NCBI GenBank assembly: GCA_903897605.1
Contig: CAIUCH010000030.1
Location: 1 to 64,000 of the forward strand
Direction: 5' to 3'
DNA: 64,000 nt
Origin: an uncultured Alphaproteobacteria bacterium
GTDB taxonomy: Bacteria > Pseudomonadota > Alphaproteobacteria > Micropepsales > Micropepsaceae
In this document: one piece after another, positions 11,286 through 23,808 of the stretch
Position numbering within the stretch: the first letter of the stretch is position 1
Layout of the letters: each line of letters starts with the position of its first letter
Made by a program: the position numbers and the translations under genes
Notes under the pieces: model-generated
Told to the model about the DNA's origin: nothing
The model's input: the letters and a program-made list of their open reading frames with translations, nothing else
Database searches by the model: none

Positions 11286-12197
11286 ATGATATGCGACGCC
11301 GTGCTTATTGCAGGCCCCACCGCGAGCGGCAAGTCCGCCGCGGCGCTCGCATTGGCGGATCATATCGGCGGCGTGGTGATCAATGCCGATTCCATGCAGG
11401 TCTATGCCGAAGCGCCCATCCTGACGGCACAGCCCGATGCCGAAGCGCGGGCCCGCGCGCCACATCTGTTGTACGGCCATGTCCCGGTGCGCGAGGTCTA
11501 TTCGGTCGGCCGTTACGCCGAGGATGCGCGCCGGGCGCTGGACCAGGCGCGAGCGATGAAAAAGATTCCGATCTTTGTCGGTGGCACCGGCCTCTATTTC
11601 ACGGCGCTGACGGATGGACTGGCGCAAGTGCCGCCCGTCCCGGCTAGGCTACGCGCCGAAGCGCGCGCGTTATTGGCGCAGATCGGTGTCGAGGAACTGC
11701 ACAAGCGCCTGGCGGCGCGCGATCCACAGACGGCGGCACAGCTTCGTCCCAGCGATCCGCAGCGTACCTTGCGCGCCTATGAAGTGTTCGCGGCGACGGG
11801 CCGGCCGTTGGCGCAATGGCAACGCGATAGCGGCGCGCCGTTGCTCAAGGGTCTTGCGCTGGCGCGATTCGTTCTCAATCCGCCGCGGCCGCTGCTGCGC
11901 GATCGTATCGGCCAGCGGTTCGAAGCCATGCTTGCGGCCGGCGGACAGGGTGAGGCGCTGGCCCTCGCCGGGCTCGATCCCGCCTTGCCGGCGGCCAAGT
12001 TGCTGGGTCTGCGTCCGCTGATCGCCCATGCCCGGGGCGAGCTGGACCGGGAAGCCGCAATTCTGCTTGCCGTTACCGCGACGCGACAATTTGCCAAGCG
12101 GCAAATGACTTGGTTTCGCAACCGGATGGGTGATTATGTCTGGATAGACCCATATTCAGGCAATATAGTTGCTTCATATGAGCAATTATCCGTATGA
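11286..12197 (+). CDS. miaA: tRNA dimethylallyltransferase
   Basis: AVLIAGPTASGKSAAALALA, INADSMQVY, VGGTGLYFTAL. Confidence 0.95.
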   Translation: MICDAVLIAGPTASGKSAAALALADHIGGVVINADSMQVYAEAPILTAQPDAEARARAPHLLYGHVPVREVYSVGRYAEDARRALDQARAMKKIPIFVGGTGLYFTALTDGLAQVPPVPARLRAEARALLAQIGVEELHKRLAARDPQTAAQLRPSDPQRTLRAYEVFAATGRPLAQWQRDSGAPLLKGLALARFVLNPPRPLLRDRIGQRFEAMLAAGGQGEALALAGLDPALPAAKLLGLRPLIAHARGELDREAAILLAVTATRQFAKRQMTWFRNRMGDYVWIDPYSGNIVASYEQLSV

Positions 12198-12203
12198 AAT
12201 TGC

Positions 12204-12232
12204 TTGACGGCAACCGCATCGCCCCCTTATCG
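12204..12232 (+). promoter_or_regulatory. Putative sigma70-type promoter of ilvBH: TTGACG-N17-TTATCG
   Basis: -35 at 12204-12209, 17-nt spacer, -10 at 12227-12232; expected start falls at or next to the leader ATG (12242). Confidence 0.6.
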
Positions 12233-12241
12233 TCCGGGCCG

Positions 12242-12292
12242 ATGAAAAACGCGGTCGTACTTATTGGAAGGCTGTCGCCCGGACGGGGCTGA
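12242..12292 (+). CDS. ilvB leader peptide MKNAVVLIGRLSPGRG
   Basis: 16-codon ORF with Val-Val-Leu-Ile run, followed by hairpins and a terminator, 94 nt before ilvB. Confidence 0.75.
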   Translation: MKNAVVLIGRLSPGRG

Positions 12293-12323
12293 ACCCCGTG
12301 TCACCGGACGGCGGCGTACGATC

Positions 12324-12347
12324 AAGGGGCGGAAACGCCCCTTTATC
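12324..12347 (+). terminator. Attenuator terminator AAGGGGCG-GAAA-CGCCCCTT-TATCTTT
   Basis: 8-bp perfect GC-rich stem, GAAA tetraloop, T-rich tail, between leader ORF and ilvB. Confidence 0.7.
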
Positions 12348-12385
12348 TTTGGTGCCAGAGCTACAGGCAGGAATTCGAGGGGAGT

Positions 12386-14182
12386 ATGAGCAAGAGCGAT
12401 ACATTGGCGGCTGCGCCCAAGCCCAAACAGGAAGCGGTTTCCCTGAGCGGCGCCGAGATGGTGGTGCGCGCGCTCAAGGATCAGGGCGTCACCCACATTT
12501 TCGGCTATCCCGGCGGTGCGGTGCTTCCGATTTATGATGCGCTCTTCGCGGACAATGGCATCACCCATGTGCTGGTGCGCCATGAACAGGGCGCCACCCA
12601 TGCGGCGGAAGGCTATGCCCGTTCCACCGGCAAGCCCGGCGTTGTGCTGGTGACATCTGGCCCCGGCGCCACCAATGCGGTGACCGGCCTGACCGATGCC
12701 TTGATGGATTCCATCCCCCTGATCGTCCTGACCGGCCAGGTGGCGACGCATCTGATCGGTACCGATGCCTTCCAGGAAGCCGATACCATCGGCATCACCC
12801 GCGCCTGCACCAAGCACAATTGGCTGGTGAAGGATGTGAACGATCTGTCGCGCATCCTGCATGAGGCGTTCCAGATCGCCACCGGCGGGCGGCCCGGTCC
12901 GGTGGTGGTCGATATTCCCAAGGACGTGCAATTCAAGACCGGCACCTATCTCACACCCGATGACGTGCATCATCGCAGCTACCGGCCCAAGACCGAGCCG
13001 GACGCGTCGGCGATCGCCCGCGCAGTTGAGATGATGGCTGCCGCCAAGCGGCCCATTTTTTACACCGGTGGCGGACTGATCAATTCGGGACCGAAGGCCA
13101 GCCAGGCCTTGCGCGAGCTGGCATCGCTGACCGGCTTTCCCGTGACCTCGACCTTGATGGGGCTGGGCGCTTTTCCCGCTTCCTCGCCGCAATGGCTGGG
13201 CATGCTGGGCATGCACGGCACCTACGAAGCCAACAATGCCATGCATGATTGCGACCTGATGGTCTGCCTGGGCGCGCGGTTCGACGATCGCGTCACCGGA
13301 CGGATTGATCTTTTCTCGCCCGGCTCGAAGAAAATTCATCTCGATATCGATCCGTCGCAGATCAACAAGATCGTGCGGGTTGATCTGGGCATCGTCGCCG
13401 ATGCCGGCAAGGCGATTACCGAGATGGTCAAGCTGTGGAAGGCGAAGGAAAAGAAGGCCGATGCGGCGGGGCTGAAAGACTGGTGGGCGCAGATCGAGCG
13501 CTGGCGTGCCAAACGCTCACTCGCCTATGAAGACTCCGAAGTGTTGATCAAGCCGCAATATGCCATCGACCGGCTGTATGCGCTGACGCGCGGCCGCGAT
13601 CTCTACATCACCACCGAAGTCGGCCAGCATCAGATGTGGGCGGCGCAGCGCTTCAAGTTCGAAGAGCCGAACCGCTGGATGACTTCGGGCGGGCTGGGCA
13701 CCATGGGCTATGGCCTGCCGGCGGCGGTGGGCGTGCAGATGGCGCATCCGGGCGCGCTGGTGATCGATATCGCCGGCGAAGCCAGCGTGCAGATGACGAT
13801 GCAGGAAATGTCGACGGCGGTGCAGTATAATCTGCCGATCAAGATCTTCATCCTGAACAACGAATATATGGGCATGGTGCGCCAGTGGCAGCAATTGCTG
13901 CATGGCGGGCGTTATTCCCATTCCTATTCCGAAGCCCTGCCGGATTTCGTCAAGATGGCGGAAGCCTTTGGCTGCCTGGGCCTGCGCGCCACCAAGCCAT
14001 TCGAACTCGATGCCAAGATCCAGGAGATGATCGACAGTCCCAAGCCGGTGCTGTTCGATTGCCGCGTCGACGCCACCGAGAATTGCTTTCCCATGATCCC
14101 GTCCGGGGCAGCGCATAATGCCATGATCCTGTCCAAGCTTTCCGAGGCTTCGGTGAGCGACGAAGGAAAGATGCTGGTGTGA
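12386..14182 (+). CDS. ilvB: Acetolactate synthase large subunit
   Basis: GYPGGAVLPIYDAL, RHEQGATHAAEGYARSTGKPGV, TPP-binding GEASVQMTMQE. Confidence 0.97.
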   Translation: MSKSDTLAAAPKPKQEAVSLSGAEMVVRALKDQGVTHIFGYPGGAVLPIYDALFADNGITHVLVRHEQGATHAAEGYARSTGKPGVVLVTSGPGATNAVTGLTDALMDSIPLIVLTGQVATHLIGTDAFQEADTIGITRACTKHNWLVKDVNDLSRILHEAFQIATGGRPGPVVVDIPKDVQFKTGTYLTPDDVHHRSYRPKTEPDASAIARAVEMMAAAKRPIFYTGGGLINSGPKASQALRELASLTGFPVTSTLMGLGAFPASSPQWLGMLGMHGTYEANNAMHDCDLMVCLGARFDDRVTGRIDLFSPGSKKIHLDIDPSQINKIVRVDLGIVADAGKAITEMVKLWKAKEKKADAAGLKDWWAQIERWRAKRSLAYEDSEVLIKPQYAIDRLYALTRGRDLYITTEVGQHQMWAAQRFKFEEPNRWMTSGGLGTMGYGLPAAVGVQMAHPGALVIDIAGEASVQMTMQEMSTAVQYNLPIKIFILNNEYMGMVRQWQQLLHGGRYSHSYSEALPDFVKMAEAFGCLGLRATKPFELDAKIQEMIDSPKPVLFDCRVDATENCFPMIPSGAAHNAMILSKLSEASVSDEGKMLV

Positions 14183-14670
14183 TGGCAAACGAACGTCACA
14201 CTTTGACCGCCCTAGTCGACAATGAGGCGGGCATCCTGGCCCGCGTCGTCGGCCTGTTTTCCGCGCGCGGCTACAATATCGAGAGCCTGACGGTGGCCGA
14301 GGTCGATCCGGCCCAGAGCACCTCGCGCATCACCGTCGTCACCTCGGGGCCGCCCCAGGTGATCGAGCAGATCGAGGCGCAGCTGCGGCGCCTGGTGCCG
14401 GTCCATGCCGTCACCAACTGGACCTTCGCCACCGGCGGCATCGAGCGTGAAATGGCACTGGTGAAAACCTCCGGCGCCGACCAGGCCGCGGCAAAAACGG
14501 CGGCGGCGAAATTCGGCGCCCGCATCCTGGACGATAGGGGGCAGACCACGGTGTTCGAGCTCACGGACTCGCCCGCCCGAATTTCCAGCTTCCTCGAAAC
14601 CATGCGGTCCCTGGGGCTTAGCGATGTTTCGCGCACCGGTGTGGCCGCCATCAGCCGCGACACCGCCTGA
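14182..14670 (+). CDS. ilvH: Acetolactate synthase small subunit
   Basis: HTLTALVDNEAGILARVVGLFSARGYNIESLTV; ATG overlaps the ilvB TGA. Confidence 0.96.
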   Translation: MANERHTLTALVDNEAGILARVVGLFSARGYNIESLTVAEVDPAQSTSRITVVTSGPPQVIEQIEAQLRRLVPVHAVTNWTFATGGIEREMALVKTSGADQAAAKTAAAKFGARILDDRGQTTVFELTDSPARISSFLETMRSLGLSDVSRTGVAAISRDTA

Positions 14671-14734: not shown

Positions 14735-15780
<1,046 letters not shown>

Positions 15781-15781
<1 letters not shown>

Positions 15782-22025: not shown

Positions 22026-22154
22026 ATGACGAAGGGCTTACGCGGCAGAAAGACTTTGGGTGGAATTTCCGCCCCAGGTGCCGTGTGCCCAGTTTCGAAA
22101 GCCCGTCCTTCCCTCGGTTCTTCGTACGCGCTTCTTCTTCTTAGCAGCCCCTAG
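22026..22154 (+). CDS. leuA leader peptide, ...SSYALLLLSSP (42 aa from ATG, or 23 aa from in-frame GTG at 22083)
   Basis: Four consecutive CTT Leu codons (22131-22142) shortly before a TAG, 97 nt before leuA, followed by a long hairpin. Confidence 0.7.
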   Translation: MTKGLRGRKTLGGISAPGAVCPVSKARPSLGSSYALLLLSSP

Positions 22155-22251: not shown

Positions 22252-23808
22252 ATGACCAGCACCGACATGAAGAGAATCAAGATCTTCGACACCACCCTGC
22301 GTGATGGTGAACAATCGCCCGGCGCGGCGATGACCCATGAAGAGAAATTGCGCATCGCCGAACTGCTCGACGAGATGGGCGTGGATGTCATCGAGGCGGG
22401 CTTTCCGATTTCCTCGCCCGGCGATTTCAAGGCGGTGAGCGAGATCACCAAGATCGTCAAGCGGGCCTCGGTTTGCGGACTGGCGCGCGCCGGCTTCAAG
22501 GATATCGATCGCGCCGGCGAAGCGCTGAAGGGGGCGCGGCAGCCGCGCATCCACACCTTCATCTCCACCAGCCCGGTGCACATGAAACACAAGCTGAATA
22601 TGGGCGAAAACGCCGTGCTGGAGGCTGTGGGCGCGTCGGTGACGCGGGCCCGCAACTGGACCTCGGATGTACAATGGTCGGCGGAAGACGCCACCCGCAC
22701 GGTGCCGGATTTTCTCTGCCGCTGCGTCGAAGTGGCGATCCATTCCGGCGCCACCACCATCAATATTCCCGACACTGTGGGCTATTCGACGCCGCAGGAA
22801 TATTTTGAGATCGTCACCATGCTGAGGAACCGCGTGCCCAATGCGGACAAGGTGATTTTTTCAACGCATTGCCACAACGATCTGGGCTTGGCGGTGGCCA
22901 ATTCCTTGGCCGGCGTGCTGGCGGGTGCGGGTCAGGTGGAATGCACCATCAATGGCATCGGCGAACGTGCCGGCAATGCCGCGCTGGAAGAGATCGTGAT
23001 GAGCCTGAAGGTGCGCAAGGACATCATGCCCTTCGCCACCGGCATCAACACCACGCTGCTGTCCAAGGCGTCCAAGCTGGTGTCGAACGTCACCGGCTTC
23101 CCGGTCCAGTACAACAAGGCGATCGTGGGCAAGAACGCCTTCAGTCATGAAAGCGGCATCCATCAGGACGGCATGCTTAAGAATGTCGAAACCTATGAGA
23201 TCATGCGGCCCGAGGATGTGGGGGTGAACGCCACCTCCCTGATGCTGGGCAAGCTTTCGGGGCGGCACGCCTTCCGCGACAAGCTGGAGAATATGGGTTA
23301 CGCGCTGGAAGACGCCGCTTTCGAGGACGCCTTCCGCCGCTTCAAGGACCTGGCCGACAAGAAGAAGCACGTCTTCGACGAGGACATTTCGGCCCTGGTG
23401 GATGACGGTTTCATGCGCGGCCAGGAAACGATCAAGGTCAAGTCGGTCCGGGTCGAGACCGGCACCGGCATCAAGCCGCAAGCGACGCTGATCCTGTCGG
23501 TGGATGGCGAGGACAGGCATGTCGCGACAGGCGGCGACGGTCCGGTGGATGCGGTTTTCCGCGCCATCCACGAGGCGTTTCCGCACACCGCGACCTTACA
23601 ATTGTTCCAGATTAACGCCGTGACCGAGGGCACCGACGCCCAGGCCACGGTCAGCGTCCGGCTGGAGGAAAATGGGCGTACGGTGACTGGTAAAGCGTCC
23701 GATACGGACACCTTAGTGGCGGCAGCTTATGCCTATGTTAACGCACTTAATAAACTATTGGTCAAACGTGAAAAGCAGGCGCCGGAAGCACTGACCGTCG
23801 CACGGTGA
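22252..23808 (+). CDS. leuA: 2-isopropylmalate synthase
   Basis: IKIFDTTLRDGEQSPGAAM, HCHNDLGLAVANSLAG; C-terminal regulatory domain. Confidence 0.97.
   Translation: MTSTDMKRIKIFDTTLRDGEQSPGAAMTHEEKLRIAELLDEMGVDVIEAGFPISSPGDFKAVSEITKIVKRASVCGLARAGFKDIDRAGEALKGARQPRIHTFISTSPVHMKHKLNMGENAVLEAVGASVTRARNWTSDVQWSAEDATRTVPDFLCRCVEVAIHSGATTINIPDTVGYSTPQEYFEIVTMLRNRVPNADKVIFSTHCHNDLGLAVANSLAGVLAGAGQVECTINGIGERAGNAALEEIVMSLKVRKDIMPFATGINTTLLSKASKLVSNVTGFPVQYNKAIVGKNAFSHESGIHQDGMLKNVETYEIMRPEDVGVNATSLMLGKLSGRHAFRDKLENMGYALEDAAFEDAFRRFKDLADKKKHVFDEDISALVDDGFMRGQETIKVKSVRVETGTGIKPQATLILSVDGEDRHVATGGDGPVDAVFRAIHEAFPHTATLQLFQINAVTEGTDAQATVSVRLEENGRTVTGKASDTDTLVAAAYAYVNALNKLLVKREKQAPEALTVAR

Follow-up and report, generated by a model that had tools for sequence, protein, structure and literature searches.

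A putative leader-peptide attenuator upstream of ilvBNC in an uncultured member of the Micropepsaceae, with a leader predicted to be translated from a leaderless mRNA

Results

The 64,000-nt stretch of DNA analysed here (the window) is part of the 2.8-Mb draft genome (G000) of an uncultured alphaproteobacterium of the family Micropepsaceae. On its forward strand, to which all coordinates refer, miaA (11286–12197; NCBIfam TIGR00174, E = 3e−64) is followed by genes for the acetolactate synthase large subunit, ilvB (12386–14182; NF006581, E = 0; TIGR00118, E = 2e−236), its small subunit, ilvN/ilvH (14182–14670; NF008864, TIGR00119), and ketol-acid reductoisomerase, ilvC (14765–15781; NF004017, TIGR00465). 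A first-pass annotation had described a promoter, a leader ORF, a hairpin over the leader stop and a terminator between miaA and ilvB, and checking the letters found all four at the positions given. The −35 hexamer, TTGACG (12204–12209), lies within a conserved sequence, AAATTGCTTGACG, which is kept in nearly all family members. The −10 had been read as TTATCG, but pattern scanning and family comparison place the conserved hexamer one base to the right, at TATCGT (12228–12233), with a spacer of 18 nt. Given the 8 nt between this hexamer and the leader ATG, the predicted transcription start is the A of this ATG or a position 1–2 nt upstream of it (12240–12242).

The leader ORF (12242–12292), read directly and recognizable in orthologous leaders, encodes the 16-codon peptide MKNAVVLIGRLSPGRG (ATG AAA AAC GCG GTC GTA CTT ATT GGA AGG CTG TCG CCC GGA CGG GGC TGA). 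Its putative control codons, GTC GTA CTT ATT (Val-Val-Leu-Ile, 12254–12265), form a conserved LVLI-type run with rare-codon bias. The stop hairpin had been described as the pairing of ACGGGG (12283–12288) with CCCCGT (12294–12299); this pairing is there, but it is merely the top of a longer stem formed by 12271–12288 with 12294–12315 (hairpin 1). In the predicted fold, 12271–12277 pairs with 12309–12315, whose strand carries a conserved GCGGC element, CCGG at 12279–12282 pairs with 12304–12307, and 12283–12288 pairs with 12294–12299. The 3′ strand of the hairpin top belongs to CCCCGTG (segment 2, 12294–12300), which could alternatively pair with CAAGGGG (segment 3, 12323–12329) to form a putative antiterminator. 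Segment 3 overlaps the 5′ arm of an intrinsic terminator hairpin, AAGGGGCG-GAAA-CGCCCCTT (12324–12343), identified by reading, pattern scan and covariation and followed by the tail TATCTTT (12344–12350). The sequence GGGGCGGAAACGCCCC occurs once in the genome, at this terminator. A Shine-Dalgarno (SD)-like sequence of ilvB, GAGGGGAG, was read at 12377–12384.

Pattern scans of the window found three promoter-like sites against 0.3 expected and two terminator-like sites against 0.8 expected. Taken by itself, the window sequence thus provides moderate evidence and is suggestive only. Chance is nevertheless excluded, because the pattern is conserved in 129 loci. IlvB was detected in 81 of the 96 family genomes, and we read the upstream DNA of 75 family loci as well as of about 80 named alphaproteobacterial loci. 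By an automated rule, a leader together with a terminator is present in 73 of the 75 family loci and in 56 other alphaproteobacterial ones. At locus L143 both can be seen by eye, and L139 (G004) has no clear branched-chain amino acid (BCAA) leader but two terminator-like hairpins upstream of ilvB in a shifted arrangement. Genera among the 129 loci include Caulobacter, Phenylobacterium, Devosia, Rhizobium, Sinorhizobium and Bradyrhizobium, and a related leader occupies the same position in Caulobacterales and Hyphomicrobiales. Aligning orthologous leaders, a check proposed in the first-pass annotation, showed that both the leader and its BCAA codon run are conserved across the 129 loci. The family consensus is approximately M-x-x-x-L-V-L-I-x-x-P-L-x-G-R-G, and the distance from stop codon to terminator is 23–33 nt in family loci.

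The control run is kept not only as peptide but also as DNA, reading CTC-GTA-CTT-ATT or nearly so in the family leaders. Compared with the 32 long ORFs of the window, which served as the codon-usage reference, the leaders are enriched in GTA (71% of Val codons vs 2.0%), CTT (38% of Leu codons vs 9.7%) and ATT (73% of Ile codons vs 18%). Attenuators are known for such bias in their control codons, for which selective charging of tRNA isoacceptors has been offered as the explanation (PMC1183508). In the minimum-energy fold of the window the control codons pair with 12316–12323. We rejected this pairing as a constraint: it occurs in the nearest relatives only, and, in a permutation test over family and named loci, the control-codon region fitted its own terminator arm no better than those of other genomes (p = 0.76), so that a pairing constraint on these codons is unsupported.

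Hairpin 1 and the terminator were assessed together in a 51-sequence alignment of close relatives, where 90.9% of cells are paired. Two-sided compensatory cells number 58, compared with 16.1 ± 4.2 after shuffling (0 of 500 shuffles as high), with related sequences treated as independent; all slid registers are far worse. Five of the seven pairs of the outer stem show two-sided changes. The terminator is nearly invariant within the genus and variable in other genera, and inside the genus its covariation is therefore little informative. A search of Rfam up to E = 10 gave no plausible match, the two matches listed falling far below the gathering scores of the snoRNA families concerned.

The between-genera changes of the terminator arm were exploited by pairing upstream regions with the 5′ arm of their own genome or with those of other genomes. 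The stop-codon region, which holds CCCCGTG, fits its own arm with −6.84 kcal/mol compared with −6.31 ± 0.13 kcal/mol for permuted arms, a value reached in none of 2000 permutations, in which relatedness among the sequences is ignored. For the middle of the leader the own-arm preference is weak (p = 0.055). The GCGGC element (12311–12315) was considered as an antiterminator and discarded, since its own arm fits worse than permuted ones; it is part of the outer strand of hairpin 1. In relatives that lack the C-run (the L105, L107 group), segment 2 can pair only by means of two G-U pairs.

To follow the ribosome along the leader, we folded transcripts ending at the terminator 5′ arm, that is, before the 3′ arm, with the ribosome masked at successive positions. 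In the family, mean pairing of the arm with segment 2 is 0 at early positions of the 3′ ribosome edge, 0.18 with this edge at −12 relative to the end of the stop codon, 0.50–0.56 between −6 and 0, and 0.02 at +12. In the window it is already 0.56 at −12 and falls to 0 at +12, and in more distant loci it is weaker, with a maximum of 0.27. In these models the pattern is that of an attenuator: an antiterminator would form with the ribosome inside the leader, and the terminator with the ribosome at the stop codon or with hairpin 1 undisturbed. If the ribosome stalled at the final control codon and had a footprint of standard size, its edge would be at about −16; the antiterminator appears from about −12, which leaves the geometry 1–2 codons short. 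When the full terminator is included, it folds in every masked state, and we therefore abandoned the thermodynamic fold of the full leader as a model of the switch; the choice must be kinetic, made during RNA polymerase transit. The antiterminator proposed in the first pass, CCCCGTG with CAAGGGG, thus holds up as to region, where own-arm fit beats 2000 of 2000 permutations, and less well as to geometry. That the antiterminator is exactly this pairing of segment 2 with the terminator 5′ arm seems to us somewhat the better bet.

A further proposal of the first-pass annotation was that the leader mRNA is leaderless. In 117 loci we measured how far the leader start lies from the −35, and the distribution is bimodal: 36–39 nt in 52 loci, 51–74 nt in 65, and none in between. 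The short class, to which the window belongs with its 8 nt, has 7–10 nt between the −10 and the start codon, which would therefore coincide with the expected transcription start or lie 1–3 nt inside it; 8 nt is compatible with a 5′ UTR of 1–3 nt in the window. All 52 short-class leaders start with ATG, compared with 36 of the 65 long-class ones, the other 29 of which use GTG or TTG. Fisher's exact test gives p = 1.5e−9 for all loci and 2.8e−5 for the family alone, related loci being counted as independent. Mean pairing energy with the anti-SD sequence is −1.4 kcal/mol in the short class vs −5.3 kcal/mol in the long class, an SD site being absent from short-class leaders and present in most long-class ones. 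The prediction is thus supported by the fixed distance, the missing SD and the uniform ATG, and we consider leaderless translation of the window leader very probable.

On an IlvB tree of 84 loci, the start class changed at least three times, each change being forced by well-supported branches, and the Rhizobiaceae-type loci are separate from the window's genus. Phylogenetic pairing yielded three independent contrasts, each neutral or in the expected direction, and with just three the association of ATG with the leaderless form cannot reach significance on the tree. The AUG-only rule for leaderless leaders is accordingly suggestive, not proven. Leaderless mRNAs are widespread in Alphaproteobacteria (PMC4117421), and in E. 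coli and Caulobacter start codons other than AUG work poorly on such mRNAs (PMC9031893).

Short-class locus L111 groups on this tree with the SD-led loci L097 and L102. Compared with these, it is missing a 14-nt stretch, AAATGGGGCAGCCC, ahead of the start codon, so that its ATG adjoins the −10; L111 is thus of the leaderless type next to SD-led neighbours, apparently through loss of these 14 nt. Among loci L052–L086, those of the Rhizobiaceae/Phyllobacteriaceae type have an ATG 7–8 nt behind the −10 and no SD, and their ilv leaders, such as MKNFAVILVVGRRMGRMV in Sinorhizobium, are predicted to be leaderless for this reason.

A second candidate attenuator was noticed upstream of leuA (22273–23751), where an ORF running from GTG at 22083 to TAG at 22154, MCPVSKARPSLGSSYALLLLSSP, contains four CTT codons (22131–22142) and is followed by CCCCTA/TAGGGG and CGCGCG hairpins. 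An LLLLS(C/S)P run is also found 5′ of leuA in several relatives of the genus (e.g. L168, L173, L177–L180, L185 and L188).

Discussion

The conserved leader, its rare codons, the covarying stem, the constant spacing and the ilvB-ilvN-ilvC operon support the first-pass reading of the element as an ilvB attenuator with a BCAA leader, and the region is almost certainly a ribosome-mediated transcription attenuator of ilvBNC. All of these, as well as the co-variation of segment 2 with the terminator arm, come from comparison of sequences, and the mechanism they suggest is as follows. Transcription would start at the leader ATG or 1–2 nt before it, and a ribosome would load on the 5′-terminal AUG and read MKNAVVLIGRLSPGRG. 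With ample Val, Leu and Ile, the ribosome would reach the UGA at 12290 and cover hairpin 1 and segment 2 (12294–12300); the terminator (12324–12343) could then form and transcription would end. Were charged tRNA for GUC-GUA-CUU-AUU scarce, the ribosome would stall upstream, hairpin 1 would not fully form, segment 2 could pair with the terminator 5′ arm (12323–12329) and RNA polymerase would enter ilvB. If the leader were not translated at all, hairpin 1 would form, making termination the default. This full account, combining an ilvBNC attenuator, a leaderless leader peptide and the segment 2 switch, we regard as likely.

Several other readings of the region have to be weighed. The hairpin might be a plain miaA terminator next to a chance ORF, given the end of miaA at 12197 and the presence of this gene ahead of ilvB in 93 of the 129 loci. 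We rejected this very improbable reading because the other 36 loci keep leader and terminator with no miaA found in the fetched upstream DNA; a conserved promoter also separates miaA from the hairpin, and neither the conserved BCAA run with its rare codons nor the covarying hairpin would be expected of it. Since the RNA ahead of this biosynthetic operon is structured, a ligand-binding riboswitch or a T-box might be considered in place of a leader peptide. The Rfam result and a conserved coding run with codon bias speak so strongly against this that we give it the least credence of all.

Two further readings accept the attenuator and differ in how it works. In one, the leader is not leaderless, transcription starting upstream at a distal promoter or by read-through from miaA and translation starting at an ATG at 12194 or at the internal ATG. 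The upstream ATG, which in the window and in L088–L091, its nearest relatives, is in frame with no intervening stop, would give a 32-residue form, MKLLDGNRIAPLSSGP-MKNAVVLIGRLSPGRG, whose KLLDG letters are conserved, and a second promoter-like match lies at 12141–12169. However, the extension is closed in many relatives (L093, L095 and L103, for example, list the short ORF only), the letters KLLDG result from translating AAATTGCTTGACGG, the conserved −35 sequence, no SD precedes 12242, and ATG-only starts at a fixed distance from the −10 in 52 loci would be unexpected for leadered translation, all of which renders this reading improbable. In the other, the switch is a different one, for example leader UCGCCC (12275–12280) pairing with the terminator 5′ arm, or ribosome–RNA polymerase coupling. 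When the ribosome is masked to about 12273, the window does fold UCGCCC with the arm; the leader middle has a weak own-arm preference (p = 0.055), and the footprint is slightly short for segment 2. Yet among the sequences folded this pairing occurs in the window and L088 only, and the permutation result for segment 2 is much stronger; a different switch is rather unlikely, if less so than a leadered start.

Leader-peptide attenuation of ilvBN has been reported in Caulobacter crescentus (Tarleton et al. 1994, as cited in Zhou et al. 2014, PMC4117421). That attenuator and the one in the window share operon function and position, a short Val/Leu/Ile leader, a stop hairpin and an intrinsic terminator, and the letters of Caulobacter leaders (e.g. 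VRNTMIVLMERPFTT) are related to those of the window leader. The Caulobacter leaders that we examined begin with GTG, behind a GGAG-type SD and a longer 5′ UTR, whereas in the window leader the start codon is ATG, without an SD and at a distance of 8 nt from the −10. By 2005 an ilvB leader peptide was counted among the described alphaproteobacterial elements (PMC1273637), and an ilvIH element of S. meliloti has been listed as cis-regulatory (PMC2573895), both papers citing Vitreschak et al. 2004. As far as these citations describe it, the window element belongs to the alphaproteobacterial ilvB/ilvIH leader-peptide class defined there by comparative genomics. The label 'unannotated' is thus apt for the window sequence, which has no Rfam match, and not for the class; the element is a well-supported addition to the known alphaproteobacterial ilvB leader-peptide attenuators. 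We found no description of the leaderless/leadered split or of the ATG-only pattern in the searchable literature, which includes few subscription papers and does not extend to Vitreschak et al. 2004. In Corynebacterium glutamicum, a different phylum, the attenuator of ilvBNC (PMC11857589) precedes the same genes and is of the three-hairpin BCAA type.

The closest counterpart for the start is trpL of Sinorhizobium meliloti (rnTrpL/peTrpL), a leaderless attenuator leader for which the transcription start and translation have been measured (PMC7298713, PMC10117765). Both systems involve attenuation and a peptide made from an RNA that begins with the AUG, as predicted in the window; the S. meliloti system, however, responds to tryptophan and controls trpE(G), and what was measured there is predicted here. 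In the window's own genome, trpE (L166, G000:C8) almost abuts the preceding gene and leaves no room for a trpL-type leader, unlike in S. meliloti.

Taken together, the start classes and the IlvB tree probably reflect one orthologous attenuator whose initiation mode changed repeatedly while codons, hairpins and terminator stayed constant. Caulobacterales, Devosia and some members of the window's genus would have the SD-led form, with AUG, GUG or UUG; Rhizobiaceae/Phyllobacteriaceae-type loci and many members of that genus would have the leaderless form, with AUG only, L111 having possibly acquired it through the 14-nt deletion. The terminated product of the leaderless form would be a small leaderless mRNA, as rnTrpL is, and the encoded peptide might act in trans.

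The attenuator as such is an ordinary, expected one, and describing it adds an annotation that is missing from the window genome and its family. The leaderless and SD forms, with otherwise the same parts, occur in sister species and amount to a natural experiment. Attenuation of this kind requires a ribosome to load close behind RNA polymerase, and the two forms permit testing of leaderless loading against the basal level or sensitivity of attenuation, as well as of AUG-only selection on leaderless start codons in Alphaproteobacteria.
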